DNA from: Closterium sp. NIES-65
Taxonomy: Eukaryota; Streptophyta; Zygnematophyceae; Desmidiales; Closteriaceae
Assembly: GCA_948144175.1 (NCBI GenBank)
Contig: CANXME010002591.1
Location: 3,347,001 to 3,411,000 of the forward strand
Reading direction: 5' to 3'
Length of the DNA: 64,000 nt
In this document: piece by piece, positions 1 to 33,636 of the stretch
Numbering within the stretch: position 1 is the first letter of the stretch
How the letters are laid out: every line of letters starts with the position of its first letter
Notes under the pieces: generated by a model
The model's input: the letters and a program-made list of their open reading frames with translations, nothing else
The model's database searches: none
Told to the model about the DNA's origin: nothing
Position numbers and translations under genes: made by a program

Positions 1-1300
1 GACACGTGTTGAAATTTTGACCCCGCAGGACCAGTTCTGAACATAATCTGGGCCTCGCGTGAGCAAAATTCCACAAAGCTGGACTTTTTGGGAACTCGGG
101 AGTAAATTTGAGATAATTTTGAAACTAAGGACCTGGCATGTAATTTCCCAAAAAAAAACTTCTGAACCCAACACTTGCCCGTCGCTTTTATGGCTCCACT
201 TGATGCCCTCCACTTGCACAGCACAGCTACACAGACACTTGTCAAGCAGTTGTTTGCCGTGGTGAAGGGTGCGAACGCACGCCAACATCGTGTCACCGCC
301 AGTGAGCTTCGTGCGACGGCTGTATTTCTCTCTGCAGGACGTACTGTATGAGTGCCAGGGGCAGACACTGGTCAGCGCATTCGACGCTCACAGCCGGCTT
401 TCCGAGGGAATGCGAAGGATTGCGTCACGACGGAACAGAAGGAACGTTCGCTTAGAAGCCAGACTAATTTCTCGAACTCTCACCTTCAGCTGAAACCATT
501 GCTCCGAGTTTCACCGGGACTATCATGTAGATGCTTCTGCTCCCAATAATTACAAGAATCACGTACTCGTATGGACTACGACTAACAACAGCAATAACCG
601 CGCCATGATTCATCTGAGAGTGTCTTTACCTCAACAGTGGTTTCCTCCTGTTGCGATCAAGCGGGTGTAACTTCGACGCACAGCCTCTTCAATTAGACGG
701 TGCGTTCTTTATTCCAGTGGACTGATATACCGCATTCAGCGGCGCGTGCCGCTTTTCAGAGTGAAATCAAGAGTCTCCTCGTCCTCGACTTATACTCGGA
801 CCACCTACCTGCGCTGTGCGCTGTCGCTGCGGCCGACTCCAACTCCGTCGGACCTTATCCACACCTCGCAAGAACCATTCGCACCGAATTGGCTGGTCTC
901 CTCCGCAGCGACTCGCGGCGATCCCAATTTCCCCGCCGGGCTGCTCTGTCGCACCACCGCACATCCATTTCTTTCCGCCATCGCGACACCACCCGCCCAC
1001 AGCCCACGCGACCGACCACGCCGCGGCGACTCTGAAGTATCGAGCAGGCTCGAGGAGGGCCTTGCCACACACCCACGCGTTCACGCGCCCATCCCCCACA
1101 CGCTCACTCCTTCACCCGTTTGCCCAACCTTTCTGAGTCGACTCGAAAGTCACCACCTATCCGCCCCCTTCTCCAGCCACGCACCCACCACCTCCCACCC
1201 CTCAACACCCCTCACTCCCGTCACCCCCGTCACGCCGCCCTCACCGCTCATCCTTGCCGCGACGGGAACCCAACCCAACCCAACCCAACCCAACCCAAGC
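1..1300. other. Upstream flank of the KAI2-like gene
   Basis: I see no convincing gene here. Short open frames overlap one another in several frames and have no recognisable domain. The 3' part (about 900-1300) is C-rich and ends in a (CAACC)n run at about 1268-1297 just before the KAI2 start codon. It probably holds the promoter and 5' UTR, but no core promoter element is clear. A dyad motif centred on GAGTCGACTC lies at 1129-1154. Confidence 0.5.
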
Positions 1301-3970
1301 ATGGGGTCCATTCTCGAGGAGCACAACGTGCGGCTGCTGGGTTCGCCGGACTCCTCGGCGTCGGAGCTCGTGGTGCTAGGCCACGGGTTCGGAACAGACC
1401 AATCCGTGTGGCAGCACATCGTGCCGCACCTACTAGACGACGACTACCGCCTCCTGCTCCTAGACCTCATGGGCGCGGGGTCGACCAACCCGGACAACTT
1501 CTCCTTCGCGCGCTATTCGTCGCTGCACGGGTACGCGGACGATCTGCTGGCGATTCTGGAGGAGGTGGGCGCGCAGCAGTGCACGTACGTGGGGCATAGC
1601 GTGTCGGGCATGATCGGGTGCATTGCGGCCATTGCTCGCCCCGAGGCGTTCAAGAAGATTGTGCTCATCGGCGCGTCGCCCAGGTGCGGTGCGGGGGAAA
1701 GGGACGGTGTGGGGGGGGGGGGGAGGGGGGTTGGGGGGTGGGGGGTGGGGGGGTGGGTGGGGGGGGAATGAGGTGACTTTTGAGTCGACTGGAAAGTCGC
1801 CCCGAGGCGTTCAAGAAGATCGTGCTCATCGGCGCGTCGCCCAGGTGCGATGCGGGCGCGCGGGGGAAGAGGGGGGTTGGAGGGAGGGGCAGGACGGTGG
1901 CGGGGTGGGGTGGGGGGAAAGAAGCCATGGGGGAGTTGGTGAGGGTTGCATTCTTGCCACGAGTAAATCGAAGTCTCCTTCCTCCCTTCCTTCCAGCCCT
2001 GTCCCGTCCATCGCGCCCACCCTCTCCCAGCATCGTCCTCCTCTCCGCTCGTTTGCTATCTAATTGCCTGGCACACCTTCCGGTCCCCACATTCCTCTTC
2101 CCCTCCTCTTCCCTCCCATTTCCTCCGCTCACCTCCTCGCCGACTCCACTCTCCGAGCTCTACCCACTGACTTTTCCCCCATCCACAAACCCCAACCACA
2201 AGTTCCCCTTCCTCCCCTCTCACTCCCCAGCTCCCTTCCCCCCACCCACCCTCCCCTACCCCCTCTAGTACCTGTACGATTGGACCATTTCTCCCAATTT
2301 ACGTTCGCAAGGCCTCTTGAGCCGCCTCAAACCCTGCCCACCGCACCCCTCTACTCCCCTTTCCTCCTGGCACCCTCCCCCCTCTTGCGTCCCTCCCTAC
2401 CCCTTGCCCCTTCCCGCCTTCCTCCCATTGCGTTTCCCCCTCCACCCCATTCCCTCCCCACCCCTCCTCCTCCCAGGTACCTGAACGACGTGGATTACCT
2501 TGGAGGCTTCGAGCAGGAGGATCTGAACCAGCTGTTGGCCGCCATGCACTCCAACTTCCCTCTCTGCTTGTGGCTGTGCTCCATCCGCACACAAACTCTC
2601 TCCGTTCGCTTCCTTCCCCCGTCCCATCCTGGCGACCTCCCCCTTCCTGCGTCCCTCCCCCACCACCTTCCCTCTTCCCTCACATTCTTGTTCCCCTCCC
2701 TTCCGCCCTCCACCTATTGCGACCCCCTCTCCACCGCCTCCCTCCACTCCCTCCTCCCTCCCACCAGGTACTTGAACGACGTGGATTATTTCGGGGGCTT
2801 CGAGCAGGAGGATCTGAACCAGCTGTTCGCCGCCATGCACTCCAACTTCCGTGCGTGGGTATCCGGCTTCGCGCCCCTGGCAGTGGGCGCGGACATCAAC
2901 TGTGCGGCGGTGCAGGAGTTCAGCCGCACCTTCTTCTGCATCCGCCCCGACATCGCTCTCTCCGTCTCCAAAACCATCTTTCAATCCGACATGCGCTCCA
3001 TCCTGCCGCAGGTGAGCGCAGGGGAGCGGCACGGCAGGGCCGGAGAGAGGGCTGCCATGCCGGTGGGTGGAAGCGGCTCTCGTGGTTGGTTGTTGCGTCG
3101 AGTCGAGTCGAGTCGGGGTAGGGTGGGATGGTGGCGCAGGTGTGTGCTTCGGTGGCCATGAGTGTGCCCGCCGTGCAGGAGTGGGGGCGGTGCAGGCGTT
3201 CAGCCGCCGCACCTTCTTCTGCATCCGCCCTGACATCGCCCTCTCTCCATCCGTCCGCATGTCGCTCCATCCATGCGCTCCTTCCAGTCCGACATGCGCT
3301 GCTGCGCTCCATCCTGCCTGCCCCAGGTGGTGCCAACTACCCCTCCTCACGCTCTCCGTGTGCTGCTCTGGAGGGGTGCATGTGGAGTGGTTTCTCCGCT
3401 CCATGCGCATCGTTTCATCCGTTTCTTCTCTCCTTGCCCTCCCACCTTGATGATGTCGCATACAGACAGGCAAGCTGACTCCCCATCATCGTCTTCCACT
3501 GTCCACAGCACCACACACCTCCAGCCCCCAATCCTCACCGCAATTTCCCCCCCCCCATTCTCCCTTCTCCCCCCCCTCCCCCCTCCAATTCCCCCCTCTC
3601 CCCACCCACCCTTTCCCCTCGTCCCCCCATCCGCACCACCTTTTCATGTCCCGACTCCTCCCTTTCTCCCCTCCAGGTGAAGGTCCCCTGCCACATCCTG
3701 CAATCGAGTCAGAACCTGCCAATACCATTAGCCATTCCTTGAAAGTCAACCCTCCGTGTCTCCCCACTCCCCCAGGTGAAGGTCCCCTGTCACATACTGC
3801 AGTCGAGCCAGGACCTGGCGGTGCCGGTGGCCGTGGCGGAGTACATGCACGCGCACCTGGGCGGCAAGAGCGTCGTCGAGATCTTCCCCACACACGGCCA
3901 CTTGCCACAGCTCTCTGCGCCCCACATCGTCATCCCCGTTCTCCGCCGCCACCTCCGGGGCAACCTGTAG
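1301..3970 (+). CDS. KAI2: KAI2-like alpha/beta hydrolase (karrikin/KL receptor family), 3 exons
   Basis: The exons are 1301-1683, 2768-3011 and 3776-3970 (822 nt, 273 aa); all introns are GT-AG and frame is kept at both junctions. The protein is colinear with land-plant KAI2 (about 270 aa): [12 protein letters not shown] near the N-terminus, nucleophile elbow GHSVS with Ser100, [25 protein letters not shown], and [14 protein letters not shown] with Asp222 and GHLPQ with His251 completing the Ser-Asp-His triad. Family knowledge: KAI2 is a soluble receptor-hydrolase that signals with an F-box partner in land plants; the role in algae is less clear. The start was chosen because [10 protein letters not shown] aligns with the KAI2 N-terminus. 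The oddity is that partial copies of each exon, some with splice sites, lie in the introns and 3' flank (listed separately). The copies used here are the only ones that give a full-length frame. KAI2 is preferred over D14 on overall sequence. Confidence 0.93.
1796..1850 (+). repeat. Ghost copy of KAI2 exon 1 3' end plus donor
   Basis: It repeats the segment around 1635-1690 at a 161-bp offset, encoding the same [15 protein letters not shown] stretch with one silent change, and keeps the GT donor. It sits inside intron 1, directly after a dyad motif at 1772-1802. The reading frame upstream is not exon-like, so it is taken as a duplicated exon fragment, not a used exon. Confidence 0.85.
2400..2558 (+). 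repeat. Ghost copy of KAI2 exon 2 5' part with acceptor
   Basis: From 2477 it repeats the first part of exon 2 (real copy from 2768) at a 291-bp offset: [20 protein letters not shown] instead of [20 protein letters not shown]. The upstream polypyrimidine tract and CAG acceptor are duplicated too. Homology stops after the CCAACTTCC segment near 2556, so the rest of the exon is missing. Confidence 0.85.
3150..3345 (+). repeat. Ghost copy of KAI2 exon 2 3' part
   Basis: It is a degenerate repeat of about 2900-3015. TTCTTCTGCATCCGCCC and TCCGACATGCGCT are recognisable, as is the end of the exon at CCCCAGGTGG. Small insertions break the frame. It lies in intron 2. Confidence 0.75.
3677..3733 (+). 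repeat. Ghost copy of KAI2 exon 3 5' part with acceptor
   Basis: GTGAAGGTCCCCTGCCACAT at 3677 repeats the start of exon 3 (3776) at a 99-bp offset, with a CTCCAG acceptor in front. It decays after about 3715. It sits in intron 2 directly before the real exon. Confidence 0.85.
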
Positions 3971-4032
3971 CTTGGGGAAGTAAAAGGGGAGGGGGAAGGG
4001 GGAGAGGACAGGAGGAGAGAGGGGGAGCTTTA

Positions 4033-4110
4033 GCAGCACCTGCCGCAGCTCTCCGCTCCCCACAACGTCATCCCCGTGCTCCGCCGCCACCTCCGGGGCA
4101 ACCTGTAGCT
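4033..4110 (+). repeat. Ghost copy of KAI2 exon 3 3' end
   Basis: It repeats the C-terminal coding end and stop (real copy about 3898-3974) downstream of the gene, including the part for [11 protein letters not shown] and its stop codon. A second, more decayed copy follows at 4345-4412. Confidence 0.85.
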
Positions 4111-4344
4111 CGCTCCGTTTCTTTGAGAAGTTAAAAAAATAAGCAAAACACAGATTCACCTGTGCTGCCACCTGTAGCTGGCTCCGCGGAGGGGAGATGT
4201 GACTTGCATGTGCATGGACTCACAAGTCACCTCATGCTCGGAGGAGACATGTAGCATACGGGGACGTGAAAAAGGTGGAAGGGGAGGAGGGGAGGTAGGG
4301 GGGAGGTGGGGAGGACAGGGAGGAGAAAGGGGGGGCGTTAGCAG

Positions 4345-4412
4345 CAGCTGCCACAGCTCTGCGCACCGACATCATTATCCCCGTGCTCAGATGCGCGGCC
4401 ACCTGCAGCTCG
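4345..4412 (+). repeat. Second, decayed ghost copy of KAI2 exon 3 end
   Basis: CAGCTGCCACAGCTCTGCGC through CCACCTGCAGCTCGC matches the exon 3 end at lower identity, with internal deletions. It is embedded in GA-rich DNA. Confidence 0.65.
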
Positions 4413-5126
4413 CTTTAGTGAGGGCAGGGAGATGGGCCGTGGTGTGACTTGGATGCTGCGCCGACTTTTGAGATTTCTCGAAACTGGTGCAGTCAGAGGC
4501 CACCTGTGAGGAGGTGACTTGGAGTTGCCGACTCAGAAGTCAATCCGTGTTCACACGCAGTCTTGAGCCCACCTCTAGGGCTGGGACGGAAGAGGTGTGG
4601 GAGGGGAGGGGAGGTAAAGAGGGTAGCTGTAGTGGGGAAAAGGGGGCAGCTGTAGAGGAGCGAAGTGGGGTAGCCGTAGTGTGTTGGCACGTTAGTGCAG
4701 GGTTGATATGGTAGCTGTAGTCGTGACTGACGTTTGCAGCACTTGCCACATCAGGGCAACGGCAGTAACGGAGGAGAGAGGAGGAGAAGGGGGGAAAGGG
4801 GGGGGGGCGAGTGAGACGTGGGGGGACACCATAGTTCCTGGAGTAGCAGTAGCAGTGGCAAGTGACAGGCTTGGTGCACAACAGCCACGGGTACCATGAC
4901 GTGCGTTTTTTTTCCATGTGCATGGTGCACTCGTAAATACAAGAATGCACTCCCCACCACTCCTGCCTGACTGACATGTGACCCATGATGAGTCATGACC
5001 CATTATCTTTGTTGGTGATGCTTGGGCCATGGCGTGTGAGCAATAGCAGAAAATGGAGCTGCTGCTGGTAACCAGCGGCAGCATGGCGACGAGGGCTTGG
5101 TTGCTCGGAGGGCTTTTATTCTATTT
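4413..5126. other. Intergenic GA-rich DNA, no gene seen
   Basis: GGGGAGG-type simple sequence, with two more instances of the recurring dyad motif (about 4463-4484 and 4512-4543). The open frames on both strands are low-complexity and are not credible genes. Confidence 0.5.
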
Positions 5127-8451: not shown

Positions 8452-10094
8452 TGTCAGAATGTTATTGTTCTCTAGCCTGCAGTGGGGTACTCTATAGCGA
8501 GTACAACCCCTTAGGATTCCCTATATGTATCCTGCTGCTTTCTAGTGAACCCCCTCCTTTCCTTATTCTCTCTTGCCTAGCTAGGGTTTACCTAGCTATG
8601 GCTCCTAACTATACCTACCATTCCTCGTTTCATCTTTCACATGGTATCAGAGCACTCATGCTCCTGGCCTGTGGGCCCTACTGCTGCTTCCGCTGCTACT
8701 CTGTGTGTTGCACGCCCCTTGGCGTGCGACGGATTCCTCTTCCCGCCGCGCGCTCGTAGCGTGCGGCGGTTTTCTGCCCGCCGTGCGCCCCGAGGCGCGC
8801 GGCGGTTTTCTGCCCGCCGTGCGCCTCGGGGCGTGCGGCGGTTCTCTGCCCGCCGTGCGTCCCGAGGCGCGCGGCGGCCTTCCGCCCCGTCGGTCCGCGC
8901 GTCGCCCCTGGGGGGCGCTTCGACGGGCGACGGGGACCAGCCCGTCGTCCCCCGTCGCCCGTCCTGGCCAGCGCGGGCTGCGCTAGCCCCGAGCGCGGCC
9001 CGTACGGGCTGCGCCCGGCCCGCGCGCGGCCCGTATGGGTTGCGCCAGGCCCGCGCGCGGCCCGTACGGGTTGCGCCAGGCCCGCGCGCGGCCCGTACGG
9101 GCTGCGCCAGGCCCGCGTGCAGCCCATACGGGCTGCGCCAGGCCCGCGCGCGGCTCGGGCGCCAGGCCCGCGCGCGGCCCGTACGGGCTGCGCCAGGCCC
9201 GCGCGCCAGGCCGCCTGCGCGCAGTTCGTCAGGCTGTGCCAGGCCCGTGGGCGGCCCGTTCCTCTCTGTCCCTGAGCTGCTCGCTGTCCCCCGTGCTTCT
9301 GACGGTGCCCCACCCCTGCTGCTGCCCGTTCTCCTGAATTAGGGTTTGGGGGTGAGGAGTGTTGGGGTGGCGGTTGTGTGTTACTCCCCTTGCTCCTCCT
9401 CCTCCCTGGTCTCCCACTGCTGCAGTTTCCGCTGAGGGGGGTGGGTGTATGGGAGCCTACGGTTTAGGGTTTAAGGGGGGTACCATGGGAGTGGAGCTAG
9501 GGCTTGAGTAGGGGGTGTGTGAGAGGGGCGTGGGGCAGCTGGAGGAAGTTGTGAGGAGGTAGTGGTCGTGTCGCCTGCAGCGCCTGTAGTCCGTCGCCCT
9601 TGCTTCGGTAGCCAGTGAGCCTGTTGCACCAGACGCCAGTGGGTCCGTTGCTCCTGCCGCTCGTCTATAGCCGTGGAGCCAGTTACTCCAGTAGTCGGCG
9701 CCCTTGCTTCGGTAGCCACTGAGTCAGCCGCTCCTGTGCACGTGCCTCTGCAGCTTCAGACGTTGCCTCCCATCTTCTCTCCTTCCACAGTTCCTCCTCC
9801 TCCTCACTTGCCCTCTGCGACTGGCTCTAGCTTTACTTGTGCATGTGAACCTGCTCTAGGACTACTTGCTCTGCTGATTATACCCCACTTTGACTATGGG
9901 GGTGTGTCAGAATGTTATTGTTCGCTAGCCTGCAGTGGGGTTCTTTATAGCGAGTACAACCCCTTAGGGTTCCCTATATGTATCCTGCTGCTTTCTAGTG
10001 AACCCCCTCCTTTCCTTATTCTCTCTTGCCTAGCTAGGGTTTACCTAGCTATGGCTCCTAACTATACCTACCATTCCTCGTTTCATCTTTCACA
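8452..10094 (+). mobile_element. Non-autonomous Copia-like LTR element (TRIM/LARD-like), 1643 bp
   Basis: Two 190-bp LTRs (8452-8641 and 9905-10094) start TGTCAGAATG and end TTTCACA. The left LTR is followed directly by a primer-binding site TGGTATCAGAGC (8642-8653), the initiator-Met tRNA complement used by plant Copia elements. A 5-bp target duplication CGCCG flanks the element (8447-8451, 10095-10099). The 1.26-kb interior has no gag, protease, integrase or RT; it holds a GC-rich tandem array (about 8990-9240) built on CCCGTACGGGCTGCGCCAGG. It must use proteins from an autonomous relative. The element at 37808-39161 is the same family. Confidence 0.9.
8990..9240. repeat. GC-rich array in the element leader
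   Basis: Units of about 30 bp contain GCGCGGCCCGTACGGG and TGCGCCAGGCCC. Each GTACGGGC/GCCCGTAC pair is self-complementary, so the transcript could fold strongly. Confidence 0.8.
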
Positions 10095-10519: not shown

Positions 10520-11425
10520 TTCATCTGATGAAGGGGAGAGACCAAGTGCGAGGGAGAGCGTGTGCACGGGAGCGAACGCGCAGGAGAGAGCGAAGGAGAG
10601 AGCGCAGGAGAGAGCGCGCGAGAGAGCGTGCGAGAGAGTGCGCGAGAGAGCGTGCGAGAGAACGCGTGAGAGAGGGCGTGAGAGAGCACGTGAGAGAGTG
10701 CGTGAGAGAGCGTGTGAGGGAGCGCGCGAGGGTGCGCATGAGAGAGCGCATGAGAGCGCATGACGGTGCGCATTAGAGAGCGTGTGAGAGAGCGCAGGAG
10801 AGGGCGTGAGGGAGCGCGCGAGAGAACGCGTGAGAGAGCGCATGAGAGAGCGCGTTAGGGTGTGCATGAGAGAGCGCATGAGAGTGCGTGAGGGTGCGCA
10901 TTAGAGAGCGTGCGAGAGAGCGCGTGAGAGAGTGCATGAGAGAGGCGTCAGGTTGCGTATGAGAGAGCATGTGAGAGAGCGCGTGTGAGAGCATGAGAGA
11001 GCTCGTGAGAGAGCGCGTGATGGTGTACGTGAGGTGCGCGTGAGTGAGCGTGTGAGAGAAGCGCATGAGAGAGCGCATGAGAGAGCGCGTGTTAGAGCGT
11101 GAGAGTGCGCGTGAGAGTGTGCGTGAGAGAGCACGTGAGAGAGCGCGTGAGTGAGTGCGTGAGAGAGAGAGAATGCGCGTGAGAGTGCGCGATGCGCGTG
11201 AGGGTGCGCATGAGAGAGCGCGTGAGAGAGCGCGTGAGGGTGCGCATGAGAGAGCGCGTGAGGGAGCGCGTGAGGGTGCGCATGAGAGAGCGCATGAGAG
11301 AGCGCGTGAGGGTGCGCATGAGAGAGCGCGTGAGGGTGCGCGTGAGGGTGCGCATGAGAGAGCGCATGAGAGCATGTGAGGGTGCGCATTAGAGAGCGTG
11401 TGAGAGAGCGCGGGAGAGGGTGCGC
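10520..11425. repeat. GAGAGAGCGCGTGAGGGTGC minisatellite, about 0.9 kb
   Basis: Long degenerate tandem array of 10-, 12- and 24-bp permutations of GAGAGAGCGCNTGA and GAGGGTGCGCATGA. All six frames give repetitive Arg/Glu, Ser/Leu/Thr or His/Ala peptides, which are artefacts of the repeat. Its right end joins a truncated Copia fragment without LTR or target duplication. Confidence 0.95.
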
Positions 11426-15584: not shown

Positions 15585-18500
15585 TTATGCCAGAGCTGAA
15601 AGGCTCTCTGCAAGAGGCTCTCCATCCCCCGCCATTGCCACGCTCAGCGGAACCTTCTGGAAATCATTTCTGAGCTGCCCGCACGCTGCATTTGCCTCCA
15701 TGCCCCGAGTGTGCCTTACAGACGCCGTGATCCTCTGGTTCCTCAGCTCCTCCACAAACGCCATCACCTGGTCAAATGGACGCAACGAGAATGCGGAGCT
15801 TCATGACCTTTATGCACAACGACAGACCAACACACGCGATGCCAGGCTAAGAAACATTGGAATTACAGGAGGAGAGTAGACAATGCCTGGGGTACGACTT
15901 AGAAGGAGAGGGGGAGGTGAAGGAGGCGGAGGAGGCGGATGAGGAGGAGGAGGAGGAGGAGGAGGAGGAGGAGGAGGAGGAGGAGGAGGAGGAGGAGGAG
16001 GAGGAGGAGGAGGAGGAGGAGGAGGAGGAGGAGGAGGAGGAGGAGGAGGAGGAGGAGGAGGAGGAGGACCCACCCACACACACACACACACACGACATGA
16101 TGGAGCTGCACTCACATAGGGTTTGCTAGGGCGGCGATAGAGCGAGTCGGAGATGGGGTTGAAGGGGATGACGTTTACATGGTGCGCCACGCCATGGCGC
16201 CGCAGCAGCGATGCCAGCTCCCGTGCATGCTCCACCTGGTCGTTCACCCCCGCTGCACACGCGAGAGCAGCACGAGATGAGGCGATGTGCAAGAGGAGAT
16301 GGGGTGACGCGCAAGGGGAGATCAGATGAGTGAATGGAGGGATTGAAACCACTTTTGAGAATTCTCGGAAGTGAATGGAGGGGTTGAGAACAAAGCAAAG
16401 AACACAGCAGCAAGTAGGTGGCGGGCTTGGCCATGTGTGCATGCGATGGTAAAGGGCAAGCAGGGCGGGAGGGAGGGCTAGCAGGGACGGAGAGGGGTAC
16501 AACAAGGGCCAGAAACAGAGCAGATGGGGGAGACGAGCAGGGAGTGAGAAGAGCAGGGAGTGCAGAGGAAGGGGGTGGGAGGGAGAGCAATGCGCAGAGG
16601 GAGGCGGGGTGGAGGGAGGGCGAGAGAGCAGGCAGGCAGCGCACCGAGCAGAGTGTATTCAAAGGAGACGCGGCGGCCAGTGGTGTTGAAATAGGCACGG
16701 CAGTCCGCCAGAAGCGCCTCTATGGGGTACGCCTTGGCTGACGGTACCAGCGCCTCCCTCAGCTGCTGGTTGGGCGCGTGCAGACTGACCAGGGGATGGG
16801 AGGAGGGGTTGACAGGCGTGAGGGCGTGTGTCAGGGCATGAGGCAGGGCATGAGAGGGTTGGGGGAAAGGGGCGAAGAGAGCGTGCGGGCAGGGAATGAT
16901 GGGTAATAAGGAGGCGATGAGCGTTTTTGAAAGGAGCAGAATATATTCGTAGGGTTGGAGTGGAGGGTGTGGGAGAGAGTGACAGGATGGGGGGAGGGGA
17001 GGTGATGTGGAACGGGATGATAATGGGGGTGCGAAGGGAGGCAGGGATTGGGTTGGAAGGGCTACTGAAGACGAGGGAAGTGGTGGTGCATGCATGGTGG
17101 TTCTTGGATGAGATGCCACTGGGACCATGTACACGACCAGAGGTAGAGAAAGAGAAAGCGCACAACAAGAGCAGAGCAAGAGCAGAGCAAGAGCAGAGCA
17201 AGAGCAGAGCAAGAGCAGAGCAAGAGCAGAGCAAGAGCACAGCAGGAGCAGAGAAAGAGAGTGCATAGACCTGACTGCGAGGGTGCACTGACCTGACTGC
17301 GAGGGTGGACTGTAGCTTGTGCTGGGCGAGGCGAGCAATGGCGTTGGGCACGCCCACGGTGGATATGGTGATGTTGCGCTGCCCTATGCCCACGTCCTGG
17401 TGCCGGGATAGAGCACTCGCACGCACGCACGCATGCACCCATGCAATGCAACCAAGCACCCATGCACCCATGCAACGCAACCAAGCACCCATGCACCCAT
17501 GCAACGCAACCAAGCACCCATGCACCCATGCACCCATGCAACCATGCAACCAGGTAAAAGGCATAGATGGAGCAGGATTGGTGGTGGCAGTACATAAGGC
17601 GTGTGGCATGCACGCATGCACAACCACACCTCGGTCACCGCAGTGAAAGATGGGGGGATCAGGACAAGCACAGCACACACAATAAGCCCTTGCCCACCCA
17701 CACATACCACCCACCCATCCACCCATCCACCCACCACCCACCCACCCACGCACCCACCCCCATCCCCACCCCGACGCCTCTCGCGCACGGACCTGGTTGA
17801 GGCACTTATGAGCGCGCAGCACAGCGGGGAGGTTGAGCAGCGGCTCGCCCATGCCCATGAAGACGATGTTGGTCACACGGTGCTGGAACAGCGCCTCCAC
17901 CGCCAGCACCTGCGCCACTATCTCGTACGGCTTTAAGTTGCGCGCGAACCCGCCCTTGCCTGTCGCGCAGAAGGAGCACCGGAGGGGACAGCCCACCTGG
18001 CGGGAAAGGGGAGGACGGGGTGAGGAGGTTGTGTGCGTGAGGGGTGGGAGGGCGATGGTGTGGTTGAGCGGGTGGGTAGATGGGATGAGAGGGGGAGAAC
18101 GGACGGAGAGGCCCTCCTTTACACCCCCTTCCCATCCCCATTGGTTCTCTTCGTTACACCCATTTGTCTCTCTTACCTCTTATGCGGTCTCTTCCAACCC
18201 CATTCCCCTTCCCCCTACCCCATTCACCTTAACCCCCCCACCGTCTCCCCTTTCTCCATTCACTCCCCTTTCCCCTCCCATTCCCCTTCGCCTGCACATC
18301 TCCCCTCTCCCCATACCTGCGAGGAGATGCAGGCGGTGAGGTGGTGAGCGCCCTTGCGGCTGCCCTCCATGGGAATACCCACCGCCTCCACCAGCCTGTT
18401 GTCCGTTAGCCGCAGCAGCAGCTGGCCGCAGCAAGAAGGGGGGGAGGAAGCAGGGAGGAGAGGGGGAGAAGGAGGGGGGAGATGCGCGTGATTGTGTGAA

Positions 18501-24264: not shown

Positions 24265-24681
24265 TGTCAAACATATATGTTTAGGTTATTTATCTAGGCT
24301 GTAGTGGGGTAGCCACTATAGGGTACGACCCCTTCCTAATTCGTACCAAACTTTCTCGATAGTCTCATCATTCCTAGCTACCTATTCTACCATGGTATTA
24401 AAAGCAATAGGTCCTTAGGACCTTAGGAGCGTTTTTTTTCAAGCCCACCACCCACCACTTGCGGTTACCGAGCTACCCCGAGCCCTGCACTACCCTAGCC
24501 CCGCGCACGTCCCGCTAGCAGCCCGTGCGGCCCGCGCGTCGCTTGTTAGTAGCCCGCGCGACCCGCTAGTCGCCTCTGCTGGCCCGCGCGCCGCCCGCTA
24601 GTAGCCCGCGCGACCCGCCCGCTGTCCGCGCAGCCCGCGCGCAGCTCCTACCTGTTGGGAATAATAAGTCTTAAGCGCCTC
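24265..24681 (+). mobile_element. Copia 5' LTR and leader, broken by insertion
   Basis: The LTR is 24265-24392 (TGTCAAACATATATG to TATTCTACCA), followed by a primer-binding site TGGTATTAAAAGC at 24393. The leader holds a GC-rich array (CCCGCGCGACCCGCTAGT, about 24480-24650). The element is interrupted at 24681 by a family-B Copia. A second copy of 24395-24681 lies at 30754-31040. No later part of this element was identified. Confidence 0.75.
24395..24681 (+). repeat. 287-bp duplication, left copy
   Basis: Runs from GTATTAAAAGCAATAGG to TTAAGCGCCTC and ends exactly at the LTR boundary of the family-B element. It matches 30754-31040 over the same length with only a few substitutions. Confidence 0.9.
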
Positions 24682-27600
24682 TGTTGGGCTGAGAATTTCA
24701 GCCTTAGGATCTTTGCAGAGAATAGGCTAGTAAGTGCTAGAGTAGCACAGCGGAAGTCTTGAGTGAATGTACTTGTGCTGGTATGTGAGAACAAGTAATT
24801 GATTAAAGCAAAGGGCATACAGGAATATATAGAAAGGATAGATTACAAGAAGCGGTTATGTTTATCGAGACGCGTAACGCTTCGACTATCGAGGTGGTTA
24901 CTGTTCACTGAAGCGTCGCTTGCTGTTACGTAACCTCCAGGCGGTTACAGCTCCCAACCTCTAGTTGCGGTTTGATGTGGTACGCGCCTTTTCGACTTCG
25001 TACTCCTTTTGTTGTGCTTCAGTATCGGGTGAGGTTCGATACTACAGAAACGCACTAAGTCATGCGTTTATTTTCCCAACACTCCCCTTCGTTTCTGGAG
25101 TGTCGACGTGGTCAGCTTCGGTGACGTGGTCCAATCCGGTGAGCAGCATGCAATACTCGAATTTCCCCTTTGGTAGCTTCTTGGTGAGATAATCTGCTGC
25201 CATCTCGGTGGTCGGGCAGTAATCCAGCTGGAGTTTTCCTTTCTCAATTTCGTCTTTCACGAAGAAGTATCGCAGTGCGATATGCTTGGTTCTGTTGGCG
25301 AAGCCATTCTTGTTCGCGATCCGTATCGCGGACTGGTTGTCGCAGAAAAGCGAGAAGCTGGGTACTTTCGCAATTTTCGCTTCTTCCAGCAGTTCGCGCA
25401 GGTACAGGCCCTCCTTGGTAGCAGTGCAGAGAGCAATATACTCTGCTTCAGCAGATGATAGTGCGACGAGTTCCTGCTTACTTGATTGCCAGGAGATAGT
25501 TCCGACGGGCTCAAGACGGTAGATGTAGCCGGTGCGAGAGCGACGATCGACACGATCAGCAGCATGATCAGCGTCGACGTAGCCGAGTAGTTTTAGGTCG
25601 GTCGTCGTGTTCTTGTGATATGTTAAGCCAACTGTTGGCGTCGAGATGAAGTAGAGAAGGGCACGGTTGAGTTCCTTGAGGTGACGTTGTTCTGGGCGCT
25701 TGAGGTAGGTCGCTAGTTGACTGGCGCTGTAGGATAAGTCCGGTCGGCACGTAACGGTGGCAAAGAGTAGGCAGCCCAGTTTCTGTTGATATTCCTGGAT
25801 TTCAGCAGGCGGCAGTGGGTTGGTTTCTTCGGTTGGATCGAGCGATAGGTGACTGTAGGGTGTTGCGATGTGCGTCGGTGTGATGCAGAAGCGTTCGGCG
25901 ATAGTGCTTGCGTATTTTGAGGCGCTGAGACGAATAGTGTTGTCTTCATCGAGGATGTTGAGCCCTAGATACTGCGTGACGTTGGGTGAGACTGTGAGGG
26001 AGAGATCTGTCTGAAGCTCCTTTTCGAACCAGGTGACGATGGTGGTAGTTGACCCGATGTAAAGCAAATCGTCGACGTAGACGATTAGCAGAACGTAGTC
26101 GTTGTCGCGAGTGAGACGATACATGCCCTGGTCATGGGGCAGTTGGTTGAATCCGATGCGTTTGAGTCGTGCGTGCAGGTACTGCTGCCAGAGTCGCGGT
26201 GCCTGCTTAATTCCGTATAGTGATTTAAGTAGTTGGCAGACGAGGGAAGGGTCGTCGACGAACCCGTGGGGCTGTTCGACGAAGATTTCAGCGTCGACTG
26301 GGGCGTATAGAAAGGCGTTGGCGACATCGATTTGTCGGAGTGGGCGGCGGCGTGAGGCGGCGATGGCGAGGAGTATGCGCAGGGAAGTATGTCGACTGAC
26401 TGGTGCGAAGGTTTCAGTGAAATCGCGACCATACTCTTGGTCGAATCCGCGGACGACCCATCGAGCTTTAAACCGTTCGATGGTTCCGTCGGAGTTGGTT
26501 TTGATCCGGAATACCCATTTTCCGGAGAGGATGGGTTTGTCTTGTGCGAGTGATGCAGGGACGATCTTCCAGGTGTTGCGGTCTGAGAGCGCTTTTAACT
26601 CCTTTTCCATGGCTTCGCGCCATTTTTCTTTGTGTTCCCCCCCCAGAGCCTGCTTGACAGAGCGAGGCTCTTCAGGTGGCGACGAAGGCCCGTGCACTGC
26701 AGCGACGAGTCCCAGGACTTGGAGTCCGCTGGGGGTGTGACGATTCAGTAAAGGGTCCTCGGGATAGACTGCTTCGTCTCCCGCTTCAGGATCAGGTGCG
26801 AATCCGGGGCCGTATCTTTCAGAGATGTCGGTGTTGACGGGTTGGGGTGTTACGTAACCATTGTCGGCGAAATGGTAGTAGGCGTCGGCATTGTTACTGT
26901 CGCGAGGGTTTTCCTCGTCCATGGGGATTGGGACGGAGCAGTAAGGAAGGGGTCCAGCAGCTTCGGAAGCGCCGTCGAAGTTCTCTTCTTCCCAGTCAGC
27001 AGCATCGGAGGGTGAAGCGAAGGCTCGGGAACCAGAAAATCCGCCGGTGGGGTCGACGTGGCGTGCGATGTTGTCCAGGTAATGGTTGAGGGTGAGTCGC
27101 TCGTAGAAGATAACGTCACGTGCTGCTACTGTTTCCTTTGTGTGGACGTCGAAGATTCGCCATGCTTCGTAATATTTTGCCAGCCCGAGGTGTAGACCCC
27201 ACTGTGCACGTTGCGAGAATCTCCCTGCGCGTGCAGTGTGTGGGCGGTACTGTACCATACACCCAAAAACTCGTAACATTTTTGTGTTGCCCAGCTTCCC
27301 AGTCCACAACAGGTGCGGAGATGCGTTGTTGGGCAGTGATGACGAGGACAGGAAGTTGTGCAGGAGGACAGCGTGGTCCATCGCTGCTGGCCATTCTGAG
27401 TTGGGCAGTCGAGTTCCACGTAGCAGCTTTCGCATGGTTGTCTGCAGGGTCCTGTTCATCCTTTCTGCCACACCCTGCTGTTGGTGAGCGTAAGGAAGAG
27501 AGATGAGGCGTTTGATGCCTCTTTCTGCCAAAAACTGTGTGAAGCTGTTTGACTGGTACTCCTTTGCGCCATCTGACTGAAAACTCTTCAGTTTCGCTCC

Positions 27601-30600
27601 TGACTCTCTTTCAGCGACAGGTAGCCAGGCTGTGAAGGCTTCTAGAGCCATGTCTCGTGATGGTAAGTTGACGTGCCAGACATATCGCGTTGCGGCGTCG
27701 ATGAAGGTGATGACGTAGTTCAGATCTTCACGTCCTTCCGTTCGAGGTATGTATAGTATGTCGCTGTAGACTTTCTCGAGTGGTTGATAAGCGGGGGCGC
27801 TCGGATTGTGGTGTGACGGGAACGGTTGGTGAGGCAGATCTGCTTCCGGGCAGATGAAGCAGGTGCCGCGTGGTCGTTCGAGTTCTCGTCCGTTGGGAAG
27901 AAGTAGGGCGTTCTTGTCTAACACTCCGGCTCGTATTGTATTGTAGAGTGTTGTGTTTCCAGGATGTCCAAGACGTTGATGCCATATGTCTTCGGAGGCG
28001 CTGTGACCTACGGAGCGTCGATAGAAGTCTGCGTTAGCGAAGAAGGCGGCGTGAGTTGCTGCACTTCGATGAACGGCGCGTGGTGCTGGCGTTAACTGTT
28101 GGGCGGCTGTCGGTGGCGTGTCGATGATGAGAGGTGGAGGTGCGACGGAGGGACCGAGCTGTAGGGTTTCGGAAGGTTGTTCCGCGACGACGGTTGGTTC
28201 TTTAATTGCAGGTTCGGAGGTCGTTGGTGTTGTGACGGGTGCAGTTGTTGTTTCGATGACGGGTGCTGACTCAGGTGTTGTGGCTTGTGTTTGCAGGACG
28301 GCAAGCGCGTTGGTGCGTTCAGCTTCGGGAATGGTACGAGAGTACCAGAAGCCTTCAGGACTGAAGTTCGGGTCGAGGTCTGGCGGATGCGTCCAAGGTG
28401 CGAGAGCGACTATGCCGTCGCTGTCTGCGGTGCCTTTGTCGGGGACGAAGTCGAGGACGAACACGTCATCTTGTTGGATTGCACGGCCGATGAAGACCCC
28501 CCCTTTTCCGTGGTAAAGACGGATTTCCAGTGCGTCGGAGTCGCACTCCAGGTGAACGCCTTTCGACATGAGTTGGCTGACGCTCAGTAAGTTAAAGCCG
28601 AGGTTGTCGACGACGAGTACTTTGTTTAATTGAAGAATAACGTTTGTTTCGTTTGACTGAAGCTCCACGACTCCTTGTTTGTTGGTGCGCAGGTTTTCGT
28701 TGTTGGCGATGGTGATGATGACGTCTCGCGGAAGACGTCGTTCGCGCTGAAGAAATCGTGATGAAGAGCACATGTGATGACCGCAACAACTGTCGAGGAA
28801 CCATGTGTCTGGTCCGGTGGGTGCACTGTTCGCGATGGCGGCGTACGTTGGATTCACGTTAAGGGACGACGGTGGTGGTGACGGTTGCTCATCAGGACTG
28901 TAAGTTGGTGGAGAGCCGGTAATGCACGAGTCGATGTTTGACTCTGTTGTTCGTGCCATGGCAACGATTCTTGGTGTCTGTGCAGGTCCCGAAGTGGAAG
29001 TTGACGGTCGTGTTGAAGTAGTCGTTGAGGCGGTAGCGGGTCGTTGTTGAGTTGACGCGATGTGGGGAGGCACTGGTCGCAGAGGACGAGAGAATGGTGC
29101 TGGTTGTCGTTGTTGCTGAGGGCAGTTGAAGCGTGTGTGTCCTGAAGTCCGACAAAGATGACAATAGGGAGGTACGTGTCCTCGATTTTGGTAGCGTGGC
29201 TGTCGTCGATTGGTGTAAAGAACGACTGGTTGATGATGCCTTTTGTTGTTGCGTTCTTCGAACAGGTCCATTTCCTGCTGCTCGGCGTGAAGTTCGGCGC
29301 AGAGATGCATTTCGGAGAGTCGACCGTGAGCGCGAAGAAGTGAGCGGGTAGTGCGCCACTGAGGTCCAAGGCCGGCAAGAACGACGGTTACGAAAGCTTC
29401 TTCAGATAAGTTTCCTCCGCAGCGAATGAGTCTGTCGCGTAGTCCTTGACAGCGACTGATGTAAGGCATGGCCTTTTCTCCAGGTTGCATTTGAACTGTT
29501 GTTAGTTGTGCCATGAGTCGGCTTTGCGTAACGCTGTCGGATGCTTGATGAATACTTCGCAGATGTTGATAAGCGAGTTCCGCGGAGTTTGCGTAGTTCC
29601 GGTAGGCGCGGATGCTTTGTTGTTCCTTCGGCGACAGGTTTCGGAGAAGAACGGTGTAAGCCATGAGGGAGTGATACGTATAATTTTCTTTGTCCTTGTC
29701 TTCGCCGTTGTGTGGATATGGCCAGGTACCGTTGAAGAAGCCAAGAAGATTCGCGCCTTCCATCAGGAGTTCAAATTCGAAGCTCCAAGAGTAGAAGTCC
29801 TTCCCGTTGAATGGTGTGGATGTGTGCAATCGTAGGATGTTGTTGAACTGTGCTTGTACTTGCAGGACTTCTTCGGTGTCTCGTTTGATGGCGGGAAGAG
29901 GAGTCGCTGGATGGCGGGGCGGCATGAACGTGAAGGAACCAGGTGAGACCGAATTTGGTGTTTGTTGATTATGTCGTCCGAACGATGAGTTGTCAATACT
30001 CATTGGTGCCGCTCCGTTGTTTACGCTGTTGCTGTTTGCAGGTTGTGAGGACTGCTGCTGCGACATGAAGTTGAAGAACTCCTCCATTAGGCTTGGGTTG
30101 AAGATTGGCGGCGCTACTGGTGCTTGAGTGGAGCGTTCCGTCGCTTCCGGTGTTAATCCGGGCGTTGTTCCTCCTTCGGTCTGCAACTCGGAGACCGGGG
30201 GTAGAGTAGATCCCGTAGATGATCTTCTTTCTTTGCCACTTGCCATGTCTTGCCTTTCTTGAGTGAAGGTTGAACTTCTTGGTCGTTTGCAGATTGGTAG
30301 CCTGAAAGAGGCTTAATGACGAGAGCCTTTGTTCTCTGACTGCTCTCATACCATGTTGGGCTGAGAATTTCAGCCTTAGGATCTTTGCAGAGAATAGGCT
30401 AGTAAGTGCTAGAGTAGCACAGCGGAAGTCTTGAGTGAATGTACTTGTGCTGGTATGTGAGAACAAGTAATTGATTAAAGCAAAGGGCATACAGGAATAT
30501 ATAGAAAGGATAGATTACAAGAAGCGGTTATGTTTATCGAGACGCGTAACGCTTCGACTATCGAGGTGGTTACTGTTCACTGAAGCGTCGCTTGCTGTTA

Positions 30601-30753
30601 CGTAACCTCCAGGCGGTTACAGCTCGCAACCTCTAGTTGCGGTTTGATGTGGTACGCGCCTTTTCGACTTCGTACTCCTTTTGTTGTGCTTCAGTATCGG
30701 GTGAGGTTCGATACTACAGAAACGCACTAAGTCATGCGTTTATTTTCCCAACA
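24682..30753 (-). mobile_element. Complete family-B Ty1/Copia retrotransposon, 6072 bp
   Basis: Two 400-bp LTRs (24682-25081 and 30354-30753; ends TGTTGGG and CCCAACA) differ at one position by eye (24953 versus 30625), implying recent insertion. On the minus strand the 5' LTR is followed by a primer-binding site TGGTATGAGAGC (30342-30353 complement), and the 3' LTR is preceded by a polypurine tract GAAACGAAGGGGAG. There is no 5-bp target duplication; 287-bp direct copies flank it instead. Confidence 0.95.
25060..30246 (-). CDS. Family-B Copia gag-pol polyprotein, intact, 1728 aa
   Basis: It is a single open frame in the order expected for Copia. Gag (UBN2-like, RLMAQLTTVQMQPGEKAM) comes first, then a zinc knuckle CHLCRTSGHTRFNC (CX2CX4HX4C, near residue 360). 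The retropepsin region WFLDSCCGHHMCSS follows near 485, then the GAG-pre-integrase region WHQRLGHPGN. Integrase has catalytic acidic motifs (YSDILYIP, FQSDGAKEY, QQGVAERMNRTL). RT has YVDD near 1389, and RNase H has DADHAAD and SSAEAEY with ADYLTKKL. Two things are unusual. The protease has Asp-Ser-Cys where retropepsins have Asp-Ser/Thr-Gly, and the same change is present in the related copy at 31507. The last seven codons and the stop lie inside the 3' LTR, so the polypurine tract is coding. The gene looks able to make all proteins needed for transposition, but activity is inference. Confidence 0.95.
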   Translation of the reverse strand: MASGKERRSSTGSTLPPVSELQTEGGTTPGLTPEATERSTQAPVAPPIFNPSLMEEFFNFMSQQQSSQPANSNSVNNGAAPMSIDNSSFGRHNQQTPNSVSPGSFTFMPPRHPATPLPAIKRDTEEVLQVQAQFNNILRLHTSTPFNGKDFYSWSFEFELLMEGANLLGFFNGTWPYPHNGEDKDKENYTYHSLMAYTVLLRNLSPKEQQSIRAYRNYANSAELAYQHLRSIHQASDSVTQSRLMAQLTTVQMQPGEKAMPYISRCQGLRDRLIRCGGNLSEEAFVTVVLAGLGPQWRTTRSLLRAHGRLSEMHLCAELHAEQQEMDLFEERNNKRHHQPVVLYTNRRQPRYQNRGHVPPYCHLCRTSGHTRFNCPQQQRQPAPFSRPLRPVPPHIASTQQRPATASTTTSTRPSTSTSGPAQTPRIVAMARTTESNIDSCITGSPPTYSPDEQPSPPPSSLNVNPTYAAIANSAPTGPDTWFLDSCCGHHMCSSSRFLQRERRLPRDVIITIANNENLRTNKQGVVELQSNETNVILQLNKVLVVDNLGFNLLSVSQLMSKGVHLECDSDALEIRLYHGKGGVFIGRAIQQDDVFVLDFVPDKGTADSDGIVALAPWTHPPDLDPNFSPEGFWYSRTIPEAERTNALAVLQTQATTPESAPVIETTTAPVTTPTTSEPAIKEPTVVAEQPSETLQLGPSVAPPPLIIDTPPTAAQQLTPAPRAVHRSAATHAAFFANADFYRRSVGHSASEDIWHQRLGHPGNTTLYNTIRAGVLDKNALLLPNGRELERPRGTCFICPEADLPHQPFPSHHNPSAPAYQPLEKVYSDILYIPRTEGREDLNYVITFIDAATRYVWHVNLPSRDMALEAFTAWLPVAERESGAKLKSFQSDGAKEYQSNSFTQFLAERGIKRLISLPYAHQQQGVAERMNRTLQTTMRKLLRGTRLPNSEWPAAMDHAVLLHNFLSSSSLPNNASPHLLWTGKLGNTKMLRVFGCMVQYRPHTARAGRFSQRAQWGLHLGLAKYYEAWRIFDVHTKETVAARDVIFYERLTLNHYLDNIARHVDPTGGFSGSRAFASPSDAADWEEENFDGASEAAGPLPYCSVPIPMDEENPRDSNNADAYYHFADNGYVTPQPVNTDISERYGPGFAPDPEAGDEAVYPEDPLLNRHTPSGLQVLGLVAAVHGPSSPPEEPRSVKQALGGEHKEKWREAMEKELKALSDRNTWKIVPASLAQDKPILSGKWVFRIKTNSDGTIERFKARWVVRGFDQEYGRDFTETFAPVSRHTSLRILLAIAASRRRPLRQIDVANAFLYAPVDAEIFVEQPHGFVDDPSLVCQLLKSLYGIKQAPRLWQQYLHARLKRIGFNQLPHDQGMYRLTRDNDYVLLIVYVDDLLYIGSTTTIVTWFEKELQTDLSLTVSPNVTQYLGLNILDEDNTIRLSASKYASTIAERFCITPTHIATPYSHLSLDPTEETNPLPPAEIQEYQQKLGCLLFATVTCRPDLSYSASQLATYLKRPEQRHLKELNRALLYFISTPTVGLTYHKNTTTDLKLLGYVDADHAADRVDRRSRTGYIYRLEPVGTISWQSSKQELVALSSAEAEYIALCTATKEGLYLRELLEEAKIAKVPSFSLFCDNQSAIRIANKNGFANRTKHIALRYFFVKDEIEKGKLQLDYCPTTEMAADYLTKKLPKGKFEYCMLLTGLDHVTEADHVDTPETKGSVGKINA

Positions 30754-31040
30754 GTATTAAAAGCAATAGGTCCTTAGGACCTTAGGAGCGTTTTTTTTCA
30801 AGCCCACCACCCACCACTTGCGGTTACCGAGCTACCCCGAGCCCTGCACTACCCTAGCCCCGCGCACGTCCCGCTAGCAGCCCGTGCGGCCCGCGCGTCG
30901 CTTGTTAGTAGCCCGCGCGACCCGCTAGTCGCCTCTGCTGGCCCGCGCGCCGCCCGCTAGTAGCCCGCGCGACCCGCCCGCTGTCCGCGCAGCCCGCGCG
31001 CTGCTCCTACCTTTTGGGAATAATAAGTCTTAAGCGCCTC
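30754..31040 (+). repeat. 287-bp duplication, right copy
   Basis: Same sequence and length as 24395-24681, lying exactly between the end of one family-B element (30753) and the start of the next LTR (31041). Differences include GCGCAGCTCC versus GCGCTGCTCC and CTGTTGGG versus CTTTTGGG near the 3' end. Confidence 0.9.
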
Positions 31041-33636
31041 TGTCGTGTCGAAACTCAGGACACTAGCGAAGCAGTCCGAATCGAAGCATCGCGAGTCAAC
31101 CCTCGGAGGTTAGGGTAACCGCCTGGAGGTTACGAGAAGGTCAAAGGTCAGCGACCTTTGACTTGACAAATACAGCGCGACAGCAAGGACACACAACTGA
31201 CTCGACATTGAGCAGTTGCCCGAGTCGCACTGTATCGAATCGCAACAGTAAAGCGGTTTTAACTTATCTATTCGTATTCCTTGTACTCTTATATAAACCT
31301 TTGTATTTGCTTGTTTAATCAACTTACTTTGCCCTCACATACTAGCGCAAGGTGGTTCAAGTACTTTCATTCAAACGCTTCCGCTACTACAATTCTACTA
31401 AGACTTAAAACTCTACAAAGATCCTAGGGCACTTCAGCCCAACATGGTATGAGAGCGGTTAGAGTTTTAAAGTTGTTTTCCTTTTTAACACTCAATACAA
31501 GAAGACATGTCTGCAAGGAAGGAGAGGAGCTCCTCCAACGGCTCTCCAGGCACTACTCCTACTCCACCTCCTGTCTCTGGTCTACAGACAGAGGAAGGGA
31601 CTACCACGAGACCAGCAGCTGGGTCTACGGAAACGCCCGCAGGCTTCGATCCAAGCATGATGGAAAAGTTCTTCTCCTTCATGTCCTTCTACGAGCAGCA
31701 CCAGCAAGGAGCACCTGCGCAATCAAACAACAGCAACAACAACAACAACGTGACGCCTATGAGTCTCGATGGCTCATCCTACGCACGCGGGATTCAACAA
31801 CAACAACAACAGCCTATCTTTGCGCCATACGAGCCCCAGCGTGGCTCCGTCAGCTTCATGCCGCAACCGCAACCTGCACCAGGACAAGAAAGGGCATTGG
31901 ATGCGTTACAAGTTCAATCGCAATTCGCGCATGTCTTAAAACTACAAACGACAAAGCCTTTCGACGGCAAAGATTTCTTCACCTGGTCGTTCGAGTTCGA
32001 ACTGATGATGGAAGGAGCACAGATTCTCGGCTTCTTCGACGGGTCCCTGCCATATCCAACAAACGGGACGCAATATGAGAAACAGCAATATACTTATCAA
32101 TCGATGATGGCGTACACGATACTGCTGAGGAACATCACCCCGACCCAGCAGCAGAACATCAGGACTTACCGAGGCTACGGCAACTCCGCGGAGCTCGCGT
32201 ACAACCACCTGAAGAACCTGTATCAAGCAACAGACAGCGTAAATCAAAGCAGGTTAATGGCGCAGCTGACAACGATTGAAATGAAACCAGGCGAGAAAGG
32301 CATGGCTTATATCAGCCGCTGTCGCGAACTGCGCGACAAGCTTCTTCGATGCGGCGGGTCGATTTCAGAAGACGCCTTTGTCACGGTGGTCATCGGCGGT
32401 CTCGGCCCCCACTGGCGCTCCACTCGCGCCATATTACGAGCACACGGGAGGATTTCCGAAGCGGCACTCTGCGCCGAAATTCATGCTGAGCAGCAAGACA
32501 TGGACCTGCAAGAAGAAAGACACAAGAAGAAAGCATTAGCACCAGAGTTTGCGTTTCACACTCAGCGACGATACAACGGCAACAACAACCGTCAACAACA
32601 AGTAAAGACAGTACCTCCGTTCTGCCACATCTGCAAGACTTCGGGCCATCCTCGCACGCACTGCCCGTCTCGCCAGACAACACCACAGCGACAACTCCGG
32701 CCTTCAAGCTCCCAAGTTGCTTCAACGCAAGCAAGTCCGACGACCACAATCCAAGCTTCAACGACTTCAACTGGACAACCTGCACAAGGAACAAGAAGCA
32801 TCGTCAATTGCATGGTGAAGATAACCGATTCGTGCACAACCAAGTCACCACCCCACTACTCACCGGAAGAAGAGCTCGACAACAGGACGCCTCGCCGCGA
32901 ATCACTCCAGCCGAATCCGACGTACGCCGCCATCGCTCAAAGCGAACCATCTGGCCAAGACACTTGGTTCTTAGATAGTTGCTGCGGACAACACATGTGC
33001 TCCTCCGGGCGCTTCGTTCAACGCGAACATCGACTCCAGCGAGAAGTAGTCATCACGGTCGCCAACAATCAGAACCTGCGCACACGACGACAAGGAGCGG
33101 TACAGCTTCAGTCACGAGAAACAAATGTCATATTACACATGTCAAAGGTACTTATCGCGGAGGGACTAGGCTACAACTTACTGAGTGTCAGCCAGTTGAT
33201 GGCGAAAGGCATCCACTTGGAAGCCAACAGCACCACCCAGGAGTTTAAGTTATACCACGGGAAGGGCGGCCTCTACATCGGAAAAGCAGTGTTGAAGAAT
33301 AACGTCTTCGTCCTCGATTTCGTCCCCGACCTGGGCACTGCAGACAGCGACGCCATCGTCAACTTCACCGACTGGACTCATCCTCCAGATCTCGATCCCG
33401 ACTTCAGCCCAGGAGGTTTCTGGTACTCGCACACCATCCCTGAAGCAGAACGAACACGAGCATTAGCAACGATTCAACAAACGACAGCAGCAGAGACAAC
33501 AACGACAGCAGCAGAGACAACAACGACAGCAGCAGAGACAACATCAGCAGCAGCAGAACCATCATCGGAAGCAGCAGGACCAACGACACCAGTCATCGAA
33601 ACACCACCAACACCCGCACAACAGCTGAACCCGACT
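31041..33636 (+). mobile_element. Second family-B Copia, 5' portion only
   Basis: The 5' LTR is 31041-31444 (TGTCGTGTCG to CAGCCCAACA, 404 bp) with a TATATAAA box at about 31290; the primer-binding site TGGTATGAGAGC begins at 31445. The 3' half of the LTR is homologous to that of the 24682 element, but the 5' half is diverged. Gag, knuckle and protease follow, and family-B sequence ends near 33636. No integrase, RT or 3' LTR of this copy was seen. Confidence 0.85.

Follow-up and report, generated by a model that had tools for sequence, protein, structure and literature searches.

Short duplications within genes have reportedly been studied as a source of new splice sites. In a potato gene, a published duplication runs across an intron–exon boundary, and splicing of the resulting new intron was verified by RNA reads (PMC4974935). 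New introns in Daphnia are described as bearing direct repeats from staggered double-strand breaks, with exon-end repeats of 4-12 bp (PMC4202315). For the Closterium psl. complex, copy-number variation and hybrid recombination are reported, together with an 876 Mb assembly of strain NIES-65 built from PacBio and linked reads (PMC10407611). Here, we analyse a stretch of 64,000 nucleotides from Closterium sp. NIES-65 (G000:C2293:3347001-3411000, hereafter the window; the assembly used comprises 874 Mb in 2400 contigs), which contains KAI2-A, a gene surrounded by partial copies of its own exons. We call a broken partial copy of an exon edge near its exon a ghost. With moderate confidence at most, we take the ghosts to be left over from short-range duplications that affected exon edges repeatedly in many genes, followed by conversion and occasional role swaps, probably with the involvement of diverged alleles.

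Set against the within-gene duplications mentioned first, the Closterium copies are truncated exon edges lying in introns, and their divergence is biased towards silent changes. The potato case is similar in that its unit joins the 3' side of an intron to the 5' side of an exon, inherits its splice signals and shows point differences; the Closterium copies differ in recurring at many exon edges, at both ends and in several families, and are known here from DNA sequence alone (PMC4974935). In the Daphnia description, break repair likewise leaves direct repeats in introns beside exons, whereas the Closterium repeats measure about 20-260 bp and diverge in a coding-like manner (PMC4202315). The psl. 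complex report also deals with duplicated genes and with recombination between sequences of different origin, but at the scale of whole genes, and partial exon copies are not among the features described in its accessible text (PMC10407611). Within-gene duplication is a class already known, and local direct copies crossing exon boundaries, as seen in internal gene duplication, are what the locus contains; recurrence at many exon edges and the silent bias set Closterium apart. The comparison with other genomes is one with the literature alone, and 'unusual' is thus not set against a matched plant or algal control. In the literature searched for the pattern, no publication on exon ghosts in Closterium was found.

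The three exons of KAI2-A have GT/AG splice sites and join into an open frame of 273 residues. The best solved-structure match of the protein is PpKAI2-like C from moss (4e-132), and KAI2 4ih1 matches at 5e-119; by its full-length homology to solved KAI2 proteins, the predicted product is a relative of the KAI2 alpha/beta-hydrolase receptors. It carries what we take to be the Ser-Asp-His triad. Self-blastn and a repeat search recovered all six of the local partial copies that an earlier note on this DNA had placed around the gene.

1301-1683, plus strand: KAI2-A exon 1, open frame
1797-1917, plus strand: ghost of the exon 1 end and the G-rich intron start; coding part 1797-1844, donor GT at 1845
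2408-2559, plus strand: ghost of the exon 2 start; intron tail 2408-2476, acceptor AG 2475-2476, coding 2477-2559
2768-3011, plus strand: KAI2-A exon 2, open frame
3186-3326, plus strand: ghost of the exon 2 end, with insertions and deletions; candidate donor GT at 3327
3657-3718, plus strand: ghost of the exon 3 start; acceptor AG 3675-3676, coding from 3677
3776-3970, plus strand: KAI2-A exon 3 with the stop codon, open frame
4037-4110, plus strand: ghost of the exon 3 end including the stop codon; 5 silent and 1 replacement changes
4294-4414, plus strand: decayed copy of the ghost segment 3987-4114 (self-blastn, 77%)

The exon 1 end (1636-1752) pairs with 1797-1917 at an offset of 161, with a 60-nucleotide core at 97% identity, and the exon 2 start (2698-2850) with 2408-2559 at an offset of 290-291 (84.5%), the intron tail being homologous too. 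For the exon 2 end, blastn aligns 2906-2962 with 3186-3245 (90%, offset 280); beyond 3245, the extent of the ghost comes from an additional 20-mer at 3281 and from alignment by eye. The exon 3 start (3751-3817) pairs with 3657-3718 (81%, exon offset 99) and the exon 3 end (3899-3972) with 4037-4110 (92%, offset 138). The copy at 4294-4414 reproduces the exon 3 end ghost together with its upstream G-rich flank. Silent and replacement codon differences number 1/0 at the exon 1 end, 3/2 and 2/1 at the start and end of exon 2, and 4/1 and 5/1 at the start and end of exon 3. In 100 dinucleotide shuffles of 1201-4500, no repeat pair reached E 1e-3 and 30 bits, and a chance origin of the repeats was rejected.

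The earlier note thus described the locus largely correctly. The off-diagonal matches it expected are present in the self-comparison, and its positions and offsets agree to within a few bases, except that the exon 2 end copy begins at 3186 and not at 3150. Of the copies it listed, the last (near 4345) came from the fifth, the ghost at 4037. Its phrase 'across every splice boundary' suits exon edges, but the end of exon 3 is a stop codon and no splice boundary; 'silent changes only' is true of the exon 1 end (1/0), whereas the other four copies each carry 1-2 replacements. Intact splice sites are present, in line with its claim: the ghost donor at 1845 reads CAG/GTGCGA, and the acceptors at 2476 and 3676 are intact. 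It was also right that no processed-pseudogene copy is involved. This origin was rejected for KAI2, because the copies are local and partial, cross single exon edges, retain intact GT/AG and adjoin intron-like sequence.

The pattern extends well beyond KAI2-A. The paralogue KAI2-B on contig C1872, with 84% protein identity, has ghosts of its own at the exon 2 start, at the exon 2 end (twice) and at the exon 3 end; in a further KAI2-like gene, on C1660/C2144, residues 176-207 are present as a ghost as well, and one on C1770 shows no repeats. At the protein level, a genome search with the chaperonin family gave side-by-side overlapping exon matches in 3 of 11 gene sets, and a search with the RPB2 family gave overlapping matches in 3 of 4 intron-split gene sets, the latter at this level only. 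At the DNA level, another partial copy within the locus was found for 29 of 45 exon hits, a figure that includes loci L037 and L040-L043, which were fetched because of their ghosts, and six KAI2 exons. Without the ghost-selected loci and KAI2, 14 of 29 exon hits are ghosted (chaperonins 8/10, kinesins 6/19). Among transfer RNA (tRNA)-synthetase loci, with one locus taken per near-identical pair, the count is 6/8, which brings the total over those chaperonin, kinesin and tRNA-synthetase loci that had not been picked for their ghosts to 20/37. None of the three kinesin loci L046-L048 has a ghost. The suggestion that the pattern is peculiar to KAI2 was therefore rejected, as the paralogue and the chaperonin, kinesin and tRNA-synthetase genes share it, with RPB2-type genes doing so at the protein level. 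The earlier note had also named the pattern as one not known to it from other plant genes, but the potato gene offers a published duplication across an intron–exon boundary (PMC4974935). A mobile origin was examined with one KAI2 DNA query, 1301-1700 (exon 1), which in the genome matched its own locus, its own ghost and the paralogue alone; for this query an introner or other mobile element was rejected, there being no dispersed copies.

Diverged haplotypes merged during assembly might produce such copies, and the genome does hold many near-duplicate contig pairs and some fungal contigs. Nevertheless, we regard this as very improbable: in eight aligned near-identical locus pairs (96.2-99.9% identical, some of the same gene), the ghosts are present in both members and no gap removes one, paralogues 70 kb apart have a common ghost junction, and the probable source assembly combines PacBio and linked reads (PMC10407611). 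The sharing of ghosts between contig pairs and of a junction between paralogues makes random misassembly unlikely, and random assembly error was rejected on the contig pairs; the KAI2 copies differ by 3-23%, which likewise makes assembly duplication unlikely. A few bases and short repeat-unit changes of 10-101 bp, among them a 44-bp intronic near-copy in L033, distinguish the members of such contig pairs, and no exon ghost was caught there at its birth. The assembly also contains contaminant contigs with fungal ribosomal DNA (rDNA) repeats, on G000:C1143 and C1262 (L070, L072), presumably of ascomycete type from our reading of the internal transcribed spacer; some of the surveyed loci may consequently be non-algal. 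Many contigs (G000:C97, C411, C1848, C2141 and others) carry the same RpoB-like frame, of 1068 amino acids in most, and are perhaps copies of plastid DNA.

Ghosts lying upstream mostly hold the start of their exon and those lying downstream often its end, with exceptions. Among 65 direct ghosts (L041 and inverted copies left out), 31 lie upstream and 34 downstream of their exon; 26 of the former extend to at most 6 bases from the start of the exon hit and 20 of the latter to at most 6 bases from its end, the hits marking exon edges inexactly. Some ghosts are internal exon pieces (for example, L032 1277 and L037 696). Three kinesin loci have inverted copies (L042, L043 and, with a single one, L044), and L058 has one of 23 bases. 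At L042 646-1062 and L043 672-1063, kinesin exon pieces have inverted neighbours that are 88% and 98% identical, and the family model matches both strands. By-eye inspection of the cut ends of ghosts revealed no consistent motif or splice site.

The divergence between the copies bears the mark of coding sequence. Without any annotation, the largest codon phase takes 63.7% of the mismatches between repeat copies, against 48.3% by chance (48 of 54 pairs, 430 mismatches), and where frames are known the mismatches at codon positions 1, 2 and 3 number 103, 84 and 302, counts that take L041-L043 twice. Example copies differ by 14 silent and 1 replacement changes and by 8 and 0; the near-silent examples span 109 and 159 nucleotides, with spacers without visible similarity. 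These data were compared with a neutral simulation of a dead ghost next to an exon in which silent changes alone are allowed, matched for the count of differing codons. For the nearest ghost at each of 38 usable boundaries out of 44 (six were dropped for too few codons or differences), 134 replacements were observed against 221 ± 9 expected, and the usable ones of 21 farther ghosts gave 48 against 72. The deficit persists when transitions are weighted more strongly and when L037 and L040 are left out (124 versus 187-198), with pooled z values of -7.3 to -9.9; KAI2-A alone, with four of its five boundaries, has 5 replacements where 10.6-11.7 are expected. In the pool, replacements between ghost and exon are too few for a dead copy. 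Where the differences are mostly silent, both copies would have been coding during much of their divergence, and many ghosts look as though they were working code until recently.

These results bear directly on ordinary neutral tandem duplication of exon edges within one haplotype, in which ghosts would start identical, intron included, and decay freely. Intron flanks were compared for the 46 of 65 ghosts with homology up to the hit edge (26 on the 5' side, 20 on the 3'). Beyond the first 15 nucleotides, mean intron identity is 0.38 for 5' ghosts, against 0.37 between unrelated genes, and 0.35 for 3' ghosts against a baseline of 0.28. On average the intron is thus at baseline for 5' ghosts and a little above it for 3' ghosts, and a minority of ghosts, larger downstream, retain recognizable intron (11/46 with high-scoring flanks). 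The clearest are the start of exon 2 in KAI2-A and L040, a kinesin locus, where homologous intron flanks go with neutral-like changes; they fit neutral duplication, as do the KAI2-B ghosts and many single boundaries. Single copies can be explained in this way, but the pooled replacement deficit and the near-silent examples with dissimilar spacers speak against it, and we consider neutral duplication a possible but doubtful explanation of the whole.

The history of individual ghosts can be followed in two genes of family PF00133, P1 and P2, which lie 70 kb apart on contig C946 and which we take to be ValRS-like from our reading of their motifs. Both have a ghost with an identical junction. Over 30 bases, the intron flank of the P1 ghost at 11375 agrees with that of the P2 exon (9719) at 23 positions, 17 of them among the first 18, and the working P1 exon end (11193, from the family hit) is a further copy upstream. 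Most simply, such a match between ghost flank and exon flank would mean that a former working end is now a ghost, and ghost 11375 is likely to be a former exon end. Judged by eye, the P2 ghost at 9908 is a conversion mosaic: the stop codon and other variants of the P2 exon recur in the first half of this ghost, and the intron flank agrees with the P1 ghost at 11574 in 29 of 30 bases. Gene conversion and role change were seen in this one family only. The second ValRS-like paralogue, at about 128 kb on C946 (L053, L068-L069), in which exon and ghost carry the same stop codon, is probably a pseudogene.

Selection could also maintain ghosts, either as alternative isoforms or real exons or through weeding because they convert into the working exon. 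Its main support is the orthologous ValRS-like ghost pair, which differs by 12 silent and 0 replacement changes over 32 codons (the three KAI2 rows with A_g2 were not used in this ghost-pair comparison). Where splice dinucleotides could be placed, ghost AG is kept in 18 of 22 cases and GT in 17 of 20, although this is about the level expected from divergence alone. If used, the exon 2 ghost acceptor of KAI2-A would keep the frame open and lengthen the product by 97 residues, but the exon 3 ghost acceptor or the exon 1 ghost donor would run into stops; a role of ghosts as decoy splice sites, as the earlier note had proposed, is possible. Among the 31 upstream ghosts, 16 have an offset divisible by 3 (one-sided p 0.027, uncorrected, ghosts within a series being non-independent), whereas only 7 of the 34 downstream ghosts do, giving 23/65 overall; the upstream excess is weak, and there is no general frame rule. 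Together with frameshifts or stops in some ghosts and truncated ends that show no consistent splice site by eye, this makes maintenance by selection quite unlikely in our view. Duplicated mutually exclusive exons were rejected, the ghosts being truncated, without a consistent second site and with offsets that are multiples of 3 in 23/65, and an in-frame alternative exon was rejected as a general rule on the upstream and downstream counts.

Recurrent duplication of exon edges, the reading we prefer, might proceed as follows. A break inside or beside an exon would be followed by repair that recopies the exon edge with some intron (about 50-300 bp), and the old edge would be left behind in the intron. 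The duplication would be tolerated only as long as a complete exon, splice site included, survives; the need for one intact edge would explain why ghosts of exon starts lie upstream and those of exon ends downstream. Plain tandem duplications, intron included, make up part of the copies. In others, mainly the exon part would be shared, with mostly silent differences, and here the new edge probably derives from a diverged functional allele or homoeologue, through break repair in which one side would be joined by homology and the other, non-homologous side by end joining. Repair of this type is known for plants. By a second route, gene conversion between exon and ghost would be confined to the exon part and a role swap would follow.

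Several observations weigh against this interpretation. In KAI2 alone, the association of repeats with exons is weak (p 0.016 for the five pairs of A, p 0.09 for the four pairs of B; the sixth KAI2-A pair, 3987-4114 with 4294-4414, lies off any exon and ended outside the tested range), and a test of whether the repeats cover an exon edge yielded p 0.034 for KAI2-A and p 0.63 for KAI2-B. Changes in KAI2-A are ghost-derived in 11 cases and exon-derived in 7, a small margin, and the 16 versus 5 of KAI2-B fit neutral duplication; many single boundaries are likewise compatible with a neutral ghost (p >0.2). The first 15 intron bases exceed the baseline on both sides (0.58 versus 0.40 and 0.52 versus 0.28), for which the splice consensus may be a partial cause, and flank local alignment scores reach at least the 97th percentile of unrelated flanks in 4 of 26 upstream and 7 of 20 downstream ghosts. 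No donor allele was seen: apart from the KAI2-A locus and the exon 1 ghost there, the exon 1 query matched the 79% paralogue and nothing else. Finally, the silent-only divergence of the orthologous ValRS-like ghosts is unexpected for a simple dead by-product. A more far-reaching proposal, which we think unlikely, is that exon edges form a fast birth-and-death family, with several interchangeable end copies per gene that recombine through conversion, step in as working edges and stay in coding condition for long, so that splice boundaries are continually replaced from spares.

Other features of the window and of the surveyed loci are as follows.

16662-18179, minus strand: open frame of 506 amino acids with a partial RlmN/Cfr-type radical SAM domain, above the Pfam Radical_SAM cut-off and below the NCBIfam cut-offs
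15901-15966 and 16002-16068: low-complexity pair beside this frame, 4 silent and 2 replacement changes
24395-62451: genes of Copia-type long terminal repeat (LTR) retroelements

No repeat pair was found inside the radical SAM frame. In the Copia region, 24395-24684 and 24682-25081 recur at 30754-31043 and 30354-30753 with >99% identity. Locus L073 (about 930-1510, minus strand) contains a plant-type 3' end of the small-subunit (SSU) ribosomal RNA gene, a partial or degenerate copy, which is interrupted after ...GTCGTAACAAGGTT by ~0.5 kb before ...TAGGTGAACCTGCGG. We recognize in this insertion what we take to be group I core motifs; Rfam returned no group I intron model for it at an E-value limit of 0.1. 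Its predicted position is the 1506 site, the place of the group I intron of Zygnematophyceae (PMC3527229).

Should the pattern prove general, an alga closely related to land plants would be rebuilding its exon edges fast enough to leave visible ghosts at roughly half of the conserved exons surveyed here (20/37). Ghosts would then mislead gene annotation and copy counts, and Closterium would offer a natural system for intron gain, for splice-site choice among decoys and for recombination between diverged alleles.

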